NCBI RefSeq assembly: GCF_014836675.1
Contig: NZ_JACSQK010000003.1
Span: 182,763-246,762, forward strand
Reading direction: 5' to 3'
DNA from: Comamonas avium
GTDB lineage: Bacteria > Pseudomonadota > Gammaproteobacteria > Burkholderiales > Burkholderiaceae_C
Length of the DNA: 64,000 bases
In this document: positions 8,770 through 56,349 of the stretch, piece by piece
Layout of the letters: the number at the start of each line of letters is the position of its first letter
Position numbering within the stretch: the stretch's first letter is position 1
Program-made: the position numbers and the translations under genes
Notes under the pieces: model-generated
Told to the model about the DNA's origin: nothing
The model's input: only the letters and a program-made list of their open reading frames with translations
Database searches by the model: none

Positions 8770-9198
8770 ATGAAACAGCTATTTCTGCCCTTGATGTTCG
8801 TCTCTGTGCTGGCGGGTTGCTCAACCTCCGCAGGTGTGGGCATCGGCGTGCCAGTTGGACCTTTTAGTGTGGGTGTCGGGCTAGGCTCTGGCGGAGTCTC
8901 TGCTGGCGTCGGTACAGGGGTGGGGCCTGTAGGGGTTGGAGTTGGCGTCAACCAGCGTGGGCAAGTGACGGGCAACGCGGGCGTCGGTGCCTCGGTACCC
9001 GTAGGTGGAGCCAGAGTGGGGGCAGGAGTTGGTACTTCTACCGTACTGCATGATCCCCAGAGCCGGTCTCAACAGCCGTCTGACAAAGCCTCTGTAGCAC
9101 CCGTTTCTCCATCACCGGTGCCAGCCTCTGGTGCTGTGCAGTGGCGTGATGCCCATGGCAACGTTGTGCCCGAATGCCGTGTGCGTGGTACTTGCTAG
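8770..9198 (+). CDS. Gly/Val-rich lipoprotein, function unknown
   Basis: A 142-residue protein. Residues 1-18 are a lipoprotein signal with lipobox LAGC, so the mature protein should be anchored to a membrane facing the periplasm. Residues 20-100 are almost entirely Gly-Val-Ser-Ala in short VGVG/GVGTG alternations without aromatics; a Pro/Ser-rich linker and a short C-terminal piece ending PECRVRGTC with two cysteines follow. The ATG at 8770 is preferred because the signal peptide begins there. The stop overlaps the stop of the convergent response regulator gene in a shared CTAG. I recognise no specific family. Confidence 0.75.
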   Translation: MKQLFLPLMFVSVLAGCSTSAGVGIGVPVGPFSVGVGLGSGGVSAGVGTGVGPVGVGVGVNQRGQVTGNAGVGASVPVGGARVGAGVGTSTVLHDPQSRSQQPSDKASVAPVSPSPVPASGAVQWRDAHGNVVPECRVRGTC

Positions 9199-10142
9199 TC
9201 GCTATAGACAATGCGGTTGCGCCCACTGCGCTTGGCCCGGTACAGGCGTGCATCGGCAGACGCAAGCAGTTGCTGGCCGTCGGTCAGTGAGCTGGGTAAT
9301 GCTGCTGCTACCCCCATGCTCACAGTGACAAACTCGGCAGCTTGCGCTTGAACATGCGGCATTTTGAGCGCTGCAATAGCCGCCTGAATGTCGTGGGCCA
9401 GCTTGAGAGCGCCTTCCAGGGGCGTTTCTGGCAGCAAGCAGACAAATTCTTCACCGCCATAGCGAGCCACCATGTCGCCCGGGCGCTGCAGGCATTGCGC
9501 GATCGTCTGTGTCACGTTCTGCAGGCATTCGTCGCCATGCAGGTGCCCGTAGTGGTCGTTAAAAGCCTTGAAGTCATCGACGTCCAGCATCAGCAAAGCC
9601 AAAGGTTGCTGCTGCCGCTGCATGCGGCTGAACTCACGGGACAGCATGGTGTTGAAGTAACGGCGGTTGGCAATGCCGGTCAGGCCATCGCAGTGAGACA
9701 GGCGTTCGAGCAAATACCGCTGGTGTGCTAACTCCAGATGATTGCGAACGCGTGCAAGCAGCGCCGGTGTGCGAAAAGGCTTGGCAATGAAGTCTGCGGC
9801 CCCCATGTTGAGGCCCACTTCTTCAGCGCTGGCATCTGATACAGCGGTGAGGAAGATGACAGGAATGTGCGCCGTTCTGGAGTCATTTCTGAGTCTGCGA
9901 AACACCTCAAAACCGTCCATGCCGGGCATGAGGATGTCCAGCAAGATCAGATCAGGATTGTGTTGTATGGCCATGTCCAGACCTTGCTGGCTGGACGTGG
10001 CAATTTGTACATCACACAAAGTGCCTACCACGCTGGCAATCAGCGTCGCATTCATTTCCACATCATCGATCACCAGTACCTTTTGGGGATGAGGTGCGGA
10101 GAGCAAGTGGGGATGGATGGGAAGCAAACTCGCGTAGGTCAT
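9195..10142 (-). CDS. Response regulator with REC and GGDEF domains (diguanylate cyclase)
   Basis: A 315-residue PleD/WspR-like protein. REC domain about 21-138 with acidic pair D26/D27, phospho-acceptor D69 and K121. GGDEF domain about 145-312 with an intact active site GGEEF (229-233) and an intact inhibitory site RPGD (220-223), five residues before it. It should make cyclic di-GMP when phosphorylated and be product-inhibited. The ATG at 10142 overlaps the stop of the hybrid kinase gene (ATGA), a strong sign of coupled translation and of a cognate pair. Confidence 0.93.
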   Translation of the reverse strand: MTYASLLPIHPHLLSAPHPQKVLVIDDVEMNATLIASVVGTLCDVQIATSSQQGLDMAIQHNPDLILLDILMPGMDGFEVFRRLRNDSRTAHIPVIFLTAVSDASAEEVGLNMGAADFIAKPFRTPALLARVRNHLELAHQRYLLERLSHCDGLTGIANRRYFNTMLSREFSRMQRQQQPLALLMLDVDDFKAFNDHYGHLHGDECLQNVTQTIAQCLQRPGDMVARYGGEEFVCLLPETPLEGALKLAHDIQAAIAALKMPHVQAQAAEFVTVSMGVAAALPSSLTDGQQLLASADARLYRAKRSGRNRIVYSD

Positions 10143-48812: not shown

Positions 48813-48893
48813 AAATATCAAAAAATAGATCATAAGTTTTATTGCGTTGCTTTTAGCATCGTGCATCGTTCCAACCTTTTCGGAGTACAGCCT

Positions 48894-50792
48894 ATGTGTG
48901 GCATCGTCGGCGCCGTTTCCACGCGCAATATCGTTCCTGTTCTGGTTCAAGGCCTGCAGCGCCTGGAATACCGCGGGTATGACTCCTGCGGCGTAGCTGT
49001 ACACCGCATGGTGGCTGGCTCACCCATCAGCCAGGGCCTGCAGCGCGCACGCAGCACAGCGCGCGTATCGGAGCTGCTGGAGCAAGTGACCCAAGATGAC
49101 CTGCAAGGCCTGGCAGGCATTGCTCACACACGCTGGGCCACGCACGGTGAACCTGCTGTGCGCAACGCCCACCCCCACTTCAGCTACGGACCGGGCGAAA
49201 CCGTGGACAGCGGCAAACCGCCCCGCGTAGCGCTGGTACACAACGGCATCATCGAAAACTACGAACAACTGCGCACCGAGCTGCAAGCCAAGGGTTATGT
49301 GTTTGCCAGCCAGACCGACACCGAAGTGATCTGCCACTTGGTGGACAGCCACTACAACGGCGACCTGTTTGACGCTGTCAAAACAGCGCGTGCACAACTG
49401 CATGGCGCTTACGCGATTGCCGTGATGCACAAGGACGAGCCACACCGCGTGGTGGGAGCCCGCGCCGGATCACCTCTGGTGCTGGGTGTGGGGCGCGACA
49501 ACAGTGAATTCTTTCTGGCCAGTGATGCAATGGCGGTGGCTGGCGTGACCGACCAGATCGTGTATCTGGAAGAGGGCGATCTGGTAGACCTGCAGCCGGG
49601 CCGCTACTGGATTGCAGACAAAACTGGCCATGCGGTACTGCCCGAGCAGCGGCCCGTAAAAACTGTGCATGCGCACAGCGGTGCTGTAGAGCTGGGCCCC
49701 TACCGCCACTACATGCAAAAGGAAATCTTTGAACAGCCACGCGCTATTGGTGACACGCTGGAAGGCATTGTCAACATCGCCCCCGAGCTGTTCGACGGCG
49801 CAGAGGGTGCAGCAGCGTGGCGTGTATTCAATGAAATCGACAACGTGCTGATTTTGGCCTGCGGCACCAGCTACTACAGCGGCTGCACGGCCAAGTACTG
49901 GCTGGAATCGATTGCGGGCATTCCCTGCAACGTGGAAGTGGCCAGTGAATACCGCTACCGCACCAGCGTACCTAATCCGAAAACCTTGGTGGTCACCATC
50001 AGCCAGTCCGGTGAGACTGCCGACACCCTGGCCGCACTGCGGCATGCGCAAAGCCTTGGCATGCACCATACGCTGACCATTTGCAACGTCGCCACCAGTG
50101 CCATGGTGCGTGAATGCAAACTGGCGTACATCACCCGTGCGGGCATGGAGATTGGCGTAGCTTCCACCAAGGCGTTTACCACGCAACTGGCGGGCTTGTT
50201 CTTGCTGACCCTGGCTCTGGCGCAATCCAAGGGCAAGCTAAGCGAAGCGCAGGAGCAGGAATATCTGACCGCCATGCGCCATTTGCCTGTGGCCCTGCAG
50301 TCGGTGCTGGCGCTGGAGCCTCAAGTGGTGAGCTGGGCAGAAAACTTTGCCAAGCAGCAAAACGCCTTGTTCCTGGGCCGTGGCATGCACTACCCCATCG
50401 CCATGGAAGGTGCGCTCAAGCTCAAAGAAATTACCTACATTCATGCGGAAGCCTACCCCGCTGGAGAACTCAAGCACGGCCCGCTGGCGCTGGTCGACAG
50501 CAGCATGCCCGTGGTCACGGTCGCTCCCAATGACGAACTGCTGGAAAAGCTCAAAAGCAACATGCAGGAAGTGCGTGCGCGCGGCGGCGTGCTGTATGTG
50601 CTGGCAGATGCCAAAACCAACATCGAAAACGCCGAAGGCATGCACGTGATTCGCATGCCCGAAAACTACGGCGCTCTCAGCCCCATCTTGCACGTGGTGC
50701 CACTGCAGCTGCTGTCCTACCACACCGCTGTGGCGCGCGGCACCGATGTAGACAAGCCGCGCAACCTTGCCAAAAGCGTGACCGTGGAGTGA
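48894..50792 (+). CDS. glmS: Glutamine-fructose-6-phosphate aminotransferase (isomerizing)
   Basis: A 632-residue enzyme making glucosamine-6-phosphate. The N-terminal class II glutaminase begins MCGIVGAV with catalytic Cys as residue 2; two SIS domains follow ([54 protein letters not shown]), ending [13 protein letters not shown], the conserved tail recognised by TnsD in Tn7-type insertion. GGAG precedes ATG 48894. No ribozyme structure is seen upstream. Confidence 0.97.
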
Positions 50793-50826
50793 AAACTCAG
50801 TTTCCAGCGTTGCTTTTATTCTGGGT

Positions 50827-50922
50827 AATTAAAGTCGTAAACTCGCAATTAAAGTCGTAAACCCCGGGCTAGTATTCATGCGGTTTTGCGGGGCGATGGT
50901 TTGTAACTGCAAAGTCGTAAAC
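50827..50922. repeat. Direct repeats AAAGTCGTAAAC just downstream of glmS
   Basis: AATTAAAGTCGTAAAC is exact at 50827-50842 and 50847-50862 (period 20); AAAGTCGTAAAC recurs at 50911-50922 (60 bases from the second copy). The first copy begins 35 bases after the glmS stop. Multiple short direct repeats at this place resemble TnsB-type binding sites at the end of a Tn7-like element, but no transposase gene or second end is seen in the window. Confidence 0.65.
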
Positions 50923-50994: not shown

Positions 50995-51022
50995 AAAAAA
51001 GCGCTCCAATGGAGCGCTTTTT
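50995..51022 (+). terminator. Terminator downstream of glmS
   Basis: AAAAAAGCGCTCC (50995-51007), loop AAT, GGAGCGCTTTTT (51011-51022), then GTTTT. It is about 200 bases from the glmS stop, farther than is usual for the other genes here, with the direct repeats in between. Confidence 0.85.
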
Positions 51023-51337: not shown

Positions 51338-52747
51338 TTAAGTGTCAAACCGGGCACCATAGTCCACTAGCAAATCTTCAACGCGGATTCCTGAGGATTG
51401 AAATAGTGCTCCAAACGTACACCCTTCAATGTTCCCAGCGGAATCATGTAACAAAGCTATTGGTAGGCCCGTCCTAGGATCAAACCTTCCAATGCATTCT
51501 CCGCTCACTTGGAAAGGACATCCGTTGAAAACTTTAAATTTCGAAAACCCACATTCAATGCTATTGGTGTGGCGTGCAGACGCAGAAGGGCTACCGAGCA
51601 ACTGATCATTAAACGCTTGGTAGTGCAGCTCACCAATCAACTCGGTGACCATGTCGGCATTTACCGGTGATTGAGCCTGATAACGCCCCTCAACTAGCAC
51701 TGCCGGAATGCGAAACTCCTCAAAGAGCTCCATGAGTTCAACTTCGGTGCCTGTGGGGTAGACCGAAATCCATGGTTGCTCGATCCTGAGCTCCAAGGCT
51801 TTCTTCATGATGCGCTGCATAGGCGATATGCCAGGATGGTGCTCAAGATCGGTGAGTGCTTGCAATCGCTCAGAAAGAATCTGATTGAGCCCTTTAAATT
51901 GGCAGCGTTCTAGTAACTGATCGCAGAATGCCGTATAGCGCTCTTGCCAGTCCCCTTCCATATCTATGAAGATCTCTGGCGCAGCTGCGAGCGCATTGGT
52001 TAGCAAATAGAACCTCCATGAAGGGTTCGATGCCCGCCATTCCTCTTCAGTAGAGGGTGTCAGTGGCTCCCAACTTATCTGCAAAGAGAGATCGCACAGT
52101 ATGGGGAATAGCTCGCTGGCGGACTCTCCGCACCGCTCCACAAACCAATCGTATGCTGCTGTGTAAACATCAGGGACCCCTGATCTGTCCCATGCAACGT
52201 CCTGTGGCATTCCAAGGATCTGATTTCCGAAAGAGCGTTCAAGGAAAAAGGCGTGACCTTCCAATATGTCCTTGGTACACAATTCTCGTGCCCTCTGGGC
52301 GATTGTGATCTCAGGGTTGATTCGCCAAGATTGAGTGATAAGCGTCAGCTTCAAAGCGTCAAGTGTCTTAGCGCCCGGGATAGTGATGAACCTAGCTTGG
52401 TTCATCTTATTCTGCTCCTCGAACACTTTGTAGAGGAAATGGGCGTACTGGTGTACATCCAACCTCGTATTGCAGTTGGCTAGAGGGATCCTAGGTCCGC
52501 CCATAACCGGCCACATCTCTTTCCATTTACGGAAAGTGAAGCCTGAAGCTTGCCTGTAACTACTCCATTGAATATGGCCGTAACCTGTGAACAATGTCTG
52601 GAAATAGTGAACGTGCTCATGGAAATATGTGAGCAAGTTCCCATTCGTAGCGGCTTCCCTTGAAAATTTCTCCGCCTTATCGAAAAGGCGCATTTCCAAC
52701 CGAGGGGTAAAAAACGTGCCAAGTGTTGCATTAAGAAAGGAGTCCAT
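51338..52747 (-). CDS. HEXXH-containing protein with C-terminal Cys4 motif, function unknown
   Basis: A 469-residue soluble protein I do not recognise. HEHVH at 43-47 (TYFHEHVHYFQTL) fits the HEXXH zinc-peptidase motif; EGHAFFLE at 163-170 could supply the third ligand, as in gluzincins. Four cysteines at 399, 410, 418 and 443 (C-x10-C-x7-C-x24-C) could bind zinc or a cluster. There is no signal peptide or membrane segment. Base composition is lower in G+C than its neighbours (two 60-base lines count 32 and 29 G+C, against 40 in a glmS line), suggesting transfer. ATG 52747; weak ribosome site. Confidence 0.75.
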   Translation of the reverse strand: MDSFLNATLGTFFTPRLEMRLFDKAEKFSREAATNGNLLTYFHEHVHYFQTLFTGYGHIQWSSYRQASGFTFRKWKEMWPVMGGPRIPLANCNTRLDVHQYAHFLYKVFEEQNKMNQARFITIPGAKTLDALKLTLITQSWRINPEITIAQRARELCTKDILEGHAFFLERSFGNQILGMPQDVAWDRSGVPDVYTAAYDWFVERCGESASELFPILCDLSLQISWEPLTPSTEEEWRASNPSWRFYLLTNALAAAPEIFIDMEGDWQERYTAFCDQLLERCQFKGLNQILSERLQALTDLEHHPGISPMQRIMKKALELRIEQPWISVYPTGTEVELMELFEEFRIPAVLVEGRYQAQSPVNADMVTELIGELHYQAFNDQLLGSPSASARHTNSIECGFSKFKVFNGCPFQVSGECIGRFDPRTGLPIALLHDSAGNIEGCTFGALFQSSGIRVEDLLVDYGARFDT

Positions 52748-53228
52748 TGCATTCCAAAAAAATGTGCGATGCGCTCGGTGATGAAGCTGACGCCGAGTTT
52801 ATTTGGTCGCTGCGTTCCGTAAAGCATCCACTTTTGGCTGAAAGTACGCGATCGTCATGGCTACCCAAAGCGTGCCCATCAGTGCCACTCAGTGACTGCT
52901 TTCGGGGACATGAGTGAAATGGCACTACCGGCCAGGAAGCAGCCGATCAACGCTTTGTCGCAGTTGGCTGCTTTAAGCTGATTGTGGTCTCTCGCGCAGC
53001 GGCATCGGTTGTACCGATCTCGGTGCAAAGTTGTTACAAGAGACATAATGGGCGACATAGGAAACGAATGGAATTCGCCATGATCGCGACGGGCGCAGCG
53101 TCTCGAAGTATTCCTCAATCCCGCACAGCATCTGTGTTAGCAGAGGACTTTGCTCTTACTAATCCGACTAGAAAGGCTAGCTCCAATACACCCACTGCGG
53201 TCTGCGGGTAGGCTTCGGGCTCGTCGCA
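52748..53228. other. Gene-free 481-base stretch between the two accessory genes
   Basis: No convincing gene. It contains a degenerate repeat block, GACTGCTTTCGGGGACATGA to CCAGGAAGCAGCCGATC (about 52892-52949), and the related CAGTTGGCTGCTTTAAGC. A separate promoter for the HEXXH gene may be here; none is obvious. Confidence 0.5.
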
Positions 53229-55112
53229 TCAAGCCTGAGGCTTAAACGCCTGCAAGTCCTCGATTGCAAGGGTTATATTTGCAAAGAGTTGGGTGTGGTA
53301 GGCATGCTCATGGCCAAGACGGTAGTCTGGCTTCCGAGGTGACTTGCGAAGGTCGCGAATATTGATTGCAGTGCTTTTCATTTGCATTTGCAATGCGCGC
53401 TCGATGGACTGTGTTGTCGCCATCGCCAGGTGCTCTTTCCTGAAGGCGGTGGCTTGAAGTCGGGTACCGCCGCGAGATGAGACGATGCATTGAACCCCCT
53501 GCGCACTGCTGTGCGTCCCAAAGAGCTCGCATAGTGCGTCGGATTCAAGAACAAGGAACCCATTCGCGTGAGCGAGCTCTCCGCGCGGTAGCCGCGTATC
53601 CTCCACAATCAGTAGGGATCCTTCGTCGCTTAGCAAGGAATGGGCGTCGCTCAACACAGACGCCCAGTGCTGTACTTCGATTTCGTGCAGAACGTTGATC
53701 AGAACTGCAACATCGGCACGCTCATGCACCGCGGCCAGATAGTCCGACGCAGAGACAAACACTCGCTCGATTCCGTCATCGAAATAGCGGCGAACCTGCT
53801 TGGTGCACTCCGCCCGCGTTGTCGGATTAGGCTCGATAGCGTAGTACGACACCCGGCTGGTGAGCTTACCTGCGAGGGTCGCCGCCAAACCGTTGAGGAG
53901 TCGTCCCTGTCCAGCACCGATGTCGACGATGGTTATGCGTCTCGCGCCTGCAAACGCTAGGAAGTCGTTGATTTGCTTGACTTGCGGGTCGTTAGGTTTG
54001 TAGACCGCGGTCTCAGGTGGACTTAGGCAATCTGCCGAGAATGCACATGCTGCAAACTGGTCGGCGCGGATACAAAAATCGCTGATCTGCTCTGCTCCCG
54101 CTGGCCCGCCGAGAAGGCCATTCACTACTTTCTCCTGAGTGAGTCCCGCGCGTTCGAAATGCCCATCTGCTCCGAACCAGATCGCGCGCGGCTCCACAGC
54201 AGCGAGATGGGCCGTCAATGCAAGGCTGTGTGTAGCGATCCACAGCTGCGCGTGCGGCAAGTACTCGCGCAGTGCATCGACGAGTGCAATTAGCCGAGAG
54301 GGATGAAGGTGTCGCTCGGGCTCGTCGAGAAGAATTGGTATCGCCGCGTTTTTGAGAACCTTTGAGTGCAGCAGCACGACGATACGGAATAGCGCCATCT
54401 GCCCGTCCGAGAACGATGTGTTACGGATACTGCGGCCGTCGAGGCTCCCATGGCCGCTTGCAATATCCAACTCCATTCCAGCTAGGTCGCTGAACAGCTT
54501 GCGAAGCCGGTCGTAGTCGCCCGCAACTGCATTGTTTGGACTGTGAAATCCGACGGTCTCGTAGCCGCTGGCACTGGCCTGCCGTATGCAGACGTCGTCG
54601 ATATAAGCGAGCGGTGTTCCAATAAGGATCGGGTCTGTCTCGTCGTCGCCTCGCGGGACGCCGATTGCAAGGCGCGCGAAGTGCTCGCGGTTGGAGGAGA
54701 GTGAGTTTCGGAGGATGTCGGAGAGTTCGCAGTACGTCGACAGTGACTCGTCAACAGTCTCACCGCTCTCGACAGCCAGCTCAAACCCCTCAAAGGGCGA
54801 AAGCAAGGCGTTGTACGCATCAATGTCGTCGCCGGCGGCTGCAAACGTGTAGTGGTCATCGGGCGGCTCGCTTGCTAGCGCGTCAAAGAACTCCTTCTTC
54901 TTTGCACGACCTTTTCGAAGCCCAGATAGTCGATCAAAGCCGACATGCCGTGTGCGACGAAGTAGCCAGTCGATAGCTTCAAGAAGTCGGGTCTTACCGC
55001 AGCCGTTTTCACCGACCAGAACGACCAGTGGCCCCAAATCGCTCAGAGTGGTGTTCCTTAAACCAAGGCGCGACGCGATATGTTCGTTGACAGCGAAACT
55101 AGAGACATGCAT
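53229..55112 (-). CDS. AAA/RecF-like ATPase fused to a class I methyltransferase
   Basis: A 627-residue fusion, numbered from ATG 55112. ATPase: Walker A GENGCGKT (34-41), ABC-type signature SFSDGQMALFRI (233-244), Walker B PILLDEPERHLHP (259-271) and H-loop ATHS (293-296), an OLD/RecF/AAA_21-type layout. A linker with several cysteines (347-362) leads to a methyltransferase: motif I VDIGAGQGRLL (396-406), acidic EPNP (427-430), and LINVLHEIE (471-479). No target-recognition domain is visible. The frame is open upstream to 55331 (other starts at 55187 and a GTG at 55331). Fusion and location suggest a defence or stress role; this is inference. Confidence 0.8.
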   Translation of the reverse strand: MHVSSFAVNEHIASRLGLRNTTLSDLGPLVVLVGENGCGKTRLLEAIDWLLRRTRHVGFDRLSGLRKGRAKKKEFFDALASEPPDDHYTFAAAGDDIDAYNALLSPFEGFELAVESGETVDESLSTYCELSDILRNSLSSNREHFARLAIGVPRGDDETDPILIGTPLAYIDDVCIRQASASGYETVGFHSPNNAVAGDYDRLRKLFSDLAGMELDIASGHGSLDGRSIRNTSFSDGQMALFRIVVLLHSKVLKNAAIPILLDEPERHLHPSRLIALVDALREYLPHAQLWIATHSLALTAHLAAVEPRAIWFGADGHFERAGLTQEKVVNGLLGGPAGAEQISDFCIRADQFAACAFSADCLSPPETAVYKPNDPQVKQINDFLAFAGARRITIVDIGAGQGRLLNGLAATLAGKLTSRVSYYAIEPNPTTRAECTKQVRRYFDDGIERVFVSASDYLAAVHERADVAVLINVLHEIEVQHWASVLSDAHSLLSDEGSLLIVEDTRLPRGELAHANGFLVLESDALCELFGTHSSAQGVQCIVSSRGGTRLQATAFRKEHLAMATTQSIERALQMQMKSTAINIRDLRKSPRKPDYRLGHEHAYHTQLFANITLAIEDLQAFKPQA

Positions 55113-55331
55113 GGGGTCGAGAGAGGGGGTAGGCGTGAAACACAATGATACCAATTGACACAGCCTTAAAGATTTTGTTCGTCGCATTTCAAGCGCGTGT
55201 CGCAGCGGAAGGTGAGGCCCGTTAATGAACAGATGCGAGTCCACAGCTGCTTCAATGCCACCGGGCTGATTGGCCTTCGGTGGTGACGCCGCCTTCCGGT
55301 CCATCCTGCTTTTGCAGAAAGCACACGGCAC

Positions 55332-55758
55332 GGAGCGCCGCCCGCTGCTCGATCGCCTAATTACATCGTCAGCCTACGTATGTCCGTCCTGAAAAGCAGG
55401 CATTGATCGACCACACTGCGACCGACCGCAATGGGTCGATAGCACAAGGTCAGCACACACCAAAGCAGTCACTTGGCGATGCTCGGATTCCACTGGCAGC
55501 TTTAAGGGGTAGAGCTGACCTTCTCGAAAGTCCTGTGCAATCACTGCTTTGGGATGCAGCAGTCGTTGGCTTTGCGGAATTGATCGACCGCAATCAGCCT
55601 GAAGCAGTCGTAAATGGGAAGACCTCCAAGGATGACTTCTGGCCGGTAGCTCCATTTCAGAATCTTCACTGAAAGCAGTCACAGATTAACTTTCGGCTGT
55701 GTGCTTGCAGCCTTCAGCTGTTCCAAAGGGGTGGAGACCAATTCGTCTTTTCCACTGG
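55332..55758. other. Gene-free stretch rich in degenerate repeats
   Basis: Several imperfect copies of one theme: AATCACTGCTTTGGGATGCA then GCAGTCGTTGGCTTTGCGG (about 55537-55578), GACCGCAATCAGCCTGAAGC then AGTCG (about 55586-55611), and CTGAAAGCAGTCACAG (about 55669-55684). No transposase or integrase frame is seen. Confidence 0.5.
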
Positions 55759-56241
55759 CTAATGAACTCTAAGCACTTCAAACTGCTGTCGGATTTGAGC
55801 GATCTGTATCGACACTTCATCACCCTCGAACTTTCCCAGCATGGCCCTGCCCAGTGGTGTTTCGCTGCTGATGACCTGAATGGGTTCAGCGCCGCTGACC
55901 AACTTCATGCTGCCCCCGTTGGGACCGAGAAAAAGTAGTTGCTGCTTTTCGTCGGAATCAACCAGACAGACCAATGCGCCGAGCTCTATGCCTTTGCTGG
56001 CGTTGTAGGGGTGTGGGTGAAACCTGCGCCAATTGGCCATAGTCTGACGGATAGCTTCAGCGCGTCGAGCCTGGCCTGTGGCCAGGTAGGCGGCTTCTAG
56101 ACCCAATGTGTCGTATTTGTTTTCAGCGACATTTTCTTCGTGAGTCGCAGCTTCATGTGCTTGGCGCGCTGCCTCTTCAACTTGTAGCAGGTCTTCGGCC
56201 AGCCGTTCTAACACCTGCTTTTGCAGAAACAATTTATCCAT
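55759..56241 (-). CDS. GreA/GreB-family elongation factor-like protein
   Basis: A 160-residue protein. The N-terminal 75 residues are helical and Gln/Glu/Ala rich, consistent with a coiled coil. The C-terminal domain fits the GreA_GreB FKBP-like fold, with SSETPLGRAMLGKFEGDEVSI matching the conserved SPLGRALLGK.xGDxV pattern. Gre factors rescue backtracked RNA polymerase. The coiled-coil tip lacks the clear acidic pair seen in GreA, so it could be a Gfh/Rnk-like competitor. ATG 56241 is preferred to a TTG two codons earlier. It marks the right-hand edge of the accessory stretch. Confidence 0.8.
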   Translation of the reverse strand: MDKLFLQKQVLERLAEDLLQVEEAARQAHEAATHEENVAENKYDTLGLEAAYLATGQARRAEAIRQTMANWRRFHPHPYNASKGIELGALVCLVDSDEKQQLLFLGPNGGSMKLVSGAEPIQVISSETPLGRAMLGKFEGDEVSIQIAQIRQQFEVLRVH

Positions 56242-56349
56242 AATCAACGCAAATCGAGAGTGAGTTCTGGATTATCAAATGCCATGCCAACTTTGACGCT
56301 GCTGCTGGCTGCAGGTCAAGTAGCTCTGGGGAGGAAAAAGCTGTTGATG

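Follow-up and report, generated by a model that had tools for sequence, protein, structure and literature searches.

A PtuA-like ATPase fused to a methyltransferase: a candidate one-gene mobile defence protein in Comamonas avium and on viral and transposon DNA

Introduction

What would a single protein that joins an ATPase to a methyltransferase do for its carrier, and could it belong to anti-phage defence? The question is raised by a gene in a 64,000-nucleotide stretch of Comamonas avium DNA (assembly GCF_014836675.1, contig NZ_JACSQK010000003.1, positions 182,763 to 246,762; hereafter the window, in whose own numbering coordinates are given), which encodes, in one chain, an AAA/ABC-type ATPase and a class I S-adenosylmethionine (SAM) methyltransferase. 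By analogy with known systems, we lean towards reading the fusion as a one-gene, mobile defence-type protein in which a PtuA-like ATPase gates a methyltransferase effector in cis. The PtuA-like ATPase itself is already known; the new element is the fused, different effector that it carries.

The fusion protein and its two halves

The gene is a stop-free open reading frame (ORF) of 627 aa; the same frame stays open upstream of the ATG at 55112 to a GTG at 55331, and we prefer the ATG as the start because the homologues begin at about the same point. The protein and its parts are as follows.

53229..55112, minus strand: ATPase–methyltransferase fusion, 627 aa, AAA/ABC-type ATPase plus class I SAM methyltransferase (from Pfam, motifs and an alignment of seven full-length members)
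54078..55112, minus strand: PtuA-like ATPase half, residues ~1-345 (Walker A 34, signature SDGQ 235, Walker B 263-264, H-loop 293-296)
53430..54014, minus strand: class I methyltransferase domain, residues ~367-561 (motif I 397, NVLHEI 473, VED..P.GE 503)
53229..53429, minus strand: C-terminal helical tail, residues ~562-627, present in all seven members

The ATPase motifs GENGCGKT (residue 34), SDGQ (235), ILLDEPERHLHP (260) and ATHS (293) and the methyltransferase motifs DIGAGQGRL (397), NVLHEI (473) and VEDTRLPRGE (503) all lie in this frame, as an initial annotation had claimed when it described the motifs of both domains as intact in one chain; its EPNP motif does occur in the window protein, but only the acidic residue, E427 (D or E), is kept in all seven members. 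Pfam places AAA_21 at residues 29-299 (E 9.7e-20), Methyltransf_23 at 383-530 (E 6e-10) and Methyltransf_12 at 396-499 (E 1e-9), each above its curated cut-off.

In predicted structure, the ATPase half most resembles PtuA, which serves as the ATPase in Septu and in retrons Ec78 and Ec83; the closest folds are largely retron PtuA entries, and AriA is also among the nearest ATPases. The earlier description of an OLD/RecF-like ATPase joined to a methyltransferase is thereby borne out, with PtuA-like as the more exact term. The best NCBIfam match of this half is Mad3, the ATPase of methylation-associated defence (MADS), at 33.7 bits and far under the cut-off of 420; MADS is a multi-gene system, unlike the single-gene fusion.

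The C-terminal half is a class I SAM methyltransferase by its motif I, the acidic end of its strand 2 and its predicted fold. It shares that fold with class I small-molecule methyltransferases (6c5b, 3mcz, MmcR 3gwz and DnrK 1tw3), and the PDB matches listed for it are mostly small-molecule or lipid enzymes. The conserved H and E of the fusion have counterparts at the same positions in 6c5b, whereas 3mcz, 3gwz and 1tw3 have just 14-20% identity to the C-terminal half, and the known enzymes have no such fused ATPase.

Relatives keep both domains in one frame

The fusion is rare. At a threshold of E 1e-20 the whole protein matched three of 299 family genomes, the window's own included, and the C-terminal half as query returned the same three among 399 (at most five candidates scored per genome). 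This is a better count than that of the order search, in which the full alignment matched the window's own genome alone among 399; that search is insensitive because three candidates were scored per genome against 9 to 75 found, among the matches listed. The 398 phylum genomes likewise gave only the window's own genome (at most three candidates scored per genome among the matches listed). Both other family genomes, G184 and G243, hold the two domains in one frame.

Among IMG/VR viral contigs, L068 and L069 emerged with the C-terminal half as query, and a scan with a five-row alignment gave ten loci, of which six ATPase-only partial matches (L073-L078) were dropped and four full-length ones kept, adding L070 and L071; L072 and L081 duplicate L069, L079 duplicates L070, and L080 duplicates L071. 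A later scan with the C-terminal alignment found no viral contig beyond L068-L071, an initial scan with ATPase motifs found none, and a scan of genome contigs on generic ATPase motifs yielded one partial ATPase match (L028, residues 225-299), which was dropped. The window protein has no match among phage or plasmid records, the L068 protein has none in phages and two partial ones in plasmids, and the island DNA has no near match in plasmids. Separately, a partial match on a Phocaeicola plasmid (L084; NZ_CP096966.1, 67555-75851) lies in a cluster of RloB, TIR, SIR2 and retron-type HNH genes.

All seven full-length members (the window, G184, G243 and L068-L071) hold both domains in the same order and in one frame, so the fusion is not a chance joining. 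The six others share 28-32% identity with the window protein, and members share up to 48% with one another; 80 residues are invariant in the seven-member alignment. Walker A, the signature (SDGQ, once SSGQ), Walker B, the H-loop, methyltransferase motif I, NV(L/F)HE and VED..(I/L)P.GE are kept throughout. Every member passes the AAA_21 cut-off and four pass that of a methyltransferase model, with the remaining three just below. Identity among members is higher in the methyltransferase half (31-50%) than in the ATPase half (25-46%), a difference that speaks for methyl transfer being important to the protein.

Genomic settings of the members

Members are found both on viral contigs and at Tn7-like ends, and they have no partner gene in common. 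From their gene content the four viral contigs look like prophages. In L068 a bPH_3/SHOCT ORF separates the member from baseplate genes upstream of it, and the L069 member lies downstream of a tail assembly gene, again with ORFs between, and is followed by an SRAP gene; the L070 contig is 50 kb long and has a tail-fibre gene 4 kb from the member, and the L071 contig has a Zot-family gene, as in filamentous phages.

The G243 relative is inside a two-ended Tn7-like element of 6,650 bp (L006 9205-15854), 23 bp from glmS, with 27-bp inverted ends and a 5-bp target duplication, TCTAG. No TnsA- or TniQ-like gene is within the element, and both are on another contig of G243. Its cargo also includes a gene with a weak metallo-beta-lactamase match (RTasMBL by PADLOC) and a single open frame at L006 14212-15690, in which a match to a type I restriction protein (C-terminal region) precedes one to HerA; this frame looks like a junction of two defence genes. 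Repeat-like sequence just outside the element (L006 ~9166-9200) suggests older ends.

The 3′ end of glmS is the usual Tn7 attachment site, and in the window, too, the fusion gene is found next to it, between glmS and a gene with a GreA/GreB domain.

48861..50792, plus strand: glmS (SIS and glutamine amidotransferase domains), named by inspection, a flank outside the system; its start may lie later
50817..50922, plus strand: Tn7-like right end, with terminus TATTCTGGGTAATTAAAG and three repeats of TnsB-site type at 50827, 50847 and 50907
55759..56247, minus strand: short protein with a GreA/GreB C-terminal domain, the island border gene, matched in 20 of 41 genus genomes, itself included

The end begins at 50817, 24 bp past the glmS stop; ends with TnsB-type repeats begin 23 bp past it in both G243 and G709. 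We take the three repeats to be of TnsB-site type from their likeness to Tn7 ends, and an exact search of the window's genome finds the core of two of these repeats at no other place. Sites of this type were present at five of the 30 genus glmS loci read (30 of 40 matches), window included. Four other genus genomes (G219, G701, G709 and G714) have the same type of end after glmS; the one in G709 (L061) adjoins an AAA gene with an end that resembles the defence protein Ppl.

Mismatch and weight-matrix scans of the window found no left transposon end: the best other site scored 11.0, and shuffled sequences peaked at 10.3 on average. TnsA has no match in the window genome, and the TniQ matches there are on another contig. 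A glmS-type terminator stem-loop at 50996-51022 lies beyond the transposon end, so the end may also be a solo one or belong to a very short element with native sequence after it. The GreA/GreB-domain gene fails to define an empty site because none of its 19 other genus loci, as read and with three shortened by contig ends, has glmS beside it. Within the island, a 56-nt inverted repeat, 73% complementary, brackets the fusion gene at 52889-52944 and 55630-55685; motifs related to it are near chance level in the window. Rfam gave no match, and a promoter scan found none against 3.1 expected.

A proposed model of phage-triggered methylation

PtuA is the regulatory ATPase of PtuAB, according to an excerpt of PMC11980606, and by analogy the fusion may consist of a sensor ATPase to which the effector is joined in cis. 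With PtuAB it shares an ABC ATPase with intact motifs and, in predicted structure, a PtuA-like fold; PtuB, however, is a separate HNH nuclease, whereas the fusion carries a methyltransferase in the same chain. No ptuB-like HNH gave a Pfam match in 14 neighbour ORFs (two in the window, three in G243 and nine at the other five loci), further flanking ORFs being judged by inspection only. The same excerpt describes PtuXYZ, a PtuA-like ATPase with DUF262 and RelE-type partners; this likewise pairs the ATPase with another effector class but, as described there, has three genes and nuclease-type partners where the window system has one gene and a methyltransferase. In PARIS, AriA works with the Toprim nuclease AriB (excerpt of PMC12409363), and an AriB-type TOPRIM/DUF4435 partner has no Pfam match in the fusion chain or the 14 neighbour ORFs. 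WonAB is a further pair of ATPase and effector, which stops translation (excerpt of PMC12137116). No defence effector of the ATPase–methyltransferase kind is among the matches listed from the open-licence literature, in agreement with the initial annotation, which knew of no characterised system with this order; a survey of conflict-system ABC ATPases may hold an earlier mention.

Because the fusion stands alone on phage-like and transposon DNA, it may defend by methylating something instead of cutting. We infer a defence role, dimerisation, ATP gating and the methyltransferase as effector, in the following order of events. The PtuA-like half would dimerise around ATP and sense infection, with the methyltransferase half as the effector in place of PtuB, the HNH nuclease of Septu and retrons. 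The ATP-bound ATPase assembly would keep the methyltransferase inactive, and a phage trigger, either a phage component or the loss of ATP, would release it. The freed enzyme would then modify an essential cellular molecule, with tRNA, a metabolite or a protein as candidate methyl acceptors, and the infected cell would stop supporting phage growth. More tentatively, we propose that this is a PtuA-type immune ATPase, encoded by one mobile gene, whose killing or arresting output is phage-triggered methylation and not nucleic-acid cleavage, perhaps acting on tRNA like PtuAB or on an essential metabolite.

Several observations weigh against a defence assignment of this kind. The fusion has no known defence phenotype, and mobile carriage would also fit counter-defence or host-fitness genes. 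The model of the whole chain is of middling confidence, with a predicted local distance difference test (pLDDT) score below 50 at residues 134-165 and 324-372 (the linker), and NCBIfam PtuA scores 31.9 bits on the fusion against a cut-off of 500. Pfam, NCBIfam, PADLOC and PHROGs all lack a full-length match to the fusion. The methyltransferase fold is generic: the viral fold library also gives mRNA-capping and FtsJ-type enzymes, and a single entry (row 48) among the 50 viral fold matches listed is named an N6-adenine DNA methylase. The G184 member has recC on one side and a flavocytochrome-type oxidoreductase gene on the other. PADLOC matched three of 17 neighbour ORFs at the six other loci and left 14 without a match; the three are the HerA/restriction frame and the weak RTasMBL gene of G243 and a generic helix-turn-helix 'control protein' at L070. 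In one of the sets scanned, none of ten neighbour ORFs matched. Recognisable defence genes thus flank one of six relatives, G243, and the direct neighbourhood supports defence at that one locus. The repeated neighbours that had been suggested as a sign of a system are accordingly mixed for defence genes, and for the HEXXH gene discussed below they are absent from the 9-20 kb around all six other members.

Alternative explanations

The fusion could be a counter-defence or superinfection-exclusion moron, a prophage or transposon protein that modifies a component of the host or of a rival phage, with the ATPase as a DNA- or protein-remodelling motor. Four of the seven members are on viral contigs, two of them (L068 and L069) separated by small or unassigned ORFs from tail or baseplate genes upstream, a usual position for morons, and defence-gene neighbours are few. 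We nevertheless consider this unlikely: the window and G243 members are at glmS and the G184 member is beside recC, with no phage gene in the nearby translations by inspection, and the nearest ATPases, PtuA and AriA, come from immune systems.

Distinctly unlikely is a housekeeping or repair protein of RecF/RecN-like type, or a stand-alone metabolic methyltransferase, with no part in conflict. RecF/SMC-type matches in Pfam and NCBIfam (SMC_N below its cut-off) and the member adjoining recC would fit such a role; the very patchy distribution (three of 399 family genomes and one of 398 phylum genomes, within the scoring given above) and the presence of members on viral contigs and in a Tn7-like element would not.

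A methyltransferase and a RecF/OLD-type ATPase in one chain also recall self-marking, in which the methyltransferase would mark host DNA and the ATPase restrict unmarked DNA; the initial annotation had pointed to methyl marks that tell self from non-self, and the lone N6-adenine DNA methylase among the viral folds leans the same way. We regard this as very improbable and reject the DNA-methylase reading. The amino DNA-methylase motif IV, [DNS]PP[YFWH], expected of restriction-modification or BREX-type enzymes, is absent from all seven members, as are the cytosine DNA-methylase motifs PCQ, PCN and PPC (a single ENV string is in the ATPase half of P0008); Pfam finds no nuclease or target-recognition domain in the fusion chain, and the small-molecule and lipid enzymes that dominate the PDB matches listed argue against it as well.

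The initial annotation also proposed a two-gene module with a neighbouring HEXXH gene.

51338..52747, minus strand: HEXXH (HEHVH) orphan protein, 469 aa; a neighbour, judged outside the system

The coordinates confirm the claimed position, 481 bases downstream of the fusion on the same strand, and adjacency is what favours a module. Pfam, NCBIfam and PADLOC assign the HEXXH protein to no family, plasmids and viral contigs gave no match to it, and at E 1e-8 it matches one of 399 family genomes, the window's own. No homologue lies within 9-20 kb around the six other members (tblastn gave chance-level pieces, E 1.9 or worse), and the motif is in no frame of at least 150 residues there. G+C is 0.491 in the HEXXH gene against 0.571 in the fusion. 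Partnership is thus not supported; the distribution and G+C largely refute a module, which we hold to be highly improbable, and we read the two genes as neighbours.

Least probable, and rejected here, is that the fusion is a retron ATPase effector (PtuA of type I-A retrons), as its largely retron PtuA folds might suggest, since the expected reverse transcriptase was not found nearby: RVT_1 is absent from G000, G184 and the four viral records, which may be fragments, and the sole G243 match is on another contig.

Implications

PtuA/OLD/AriA-type ATPases are known with nuclease effectors (HNH, TOPRIM and restriction endonuclease). If our preferred reading of the fusion as a defence-type protein is true, the same ATPase sensor can drive a non-nucleolytic output through a fused, conserved and apparently intact methyltransferase, and in this one-gene form each half would be readily addressed by point mutation. 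Its presence on a filamentous-phage contig, on tailed-phage contigs and in a Tn7-like element suggests that the fusion is carried as stand-alone cargo.
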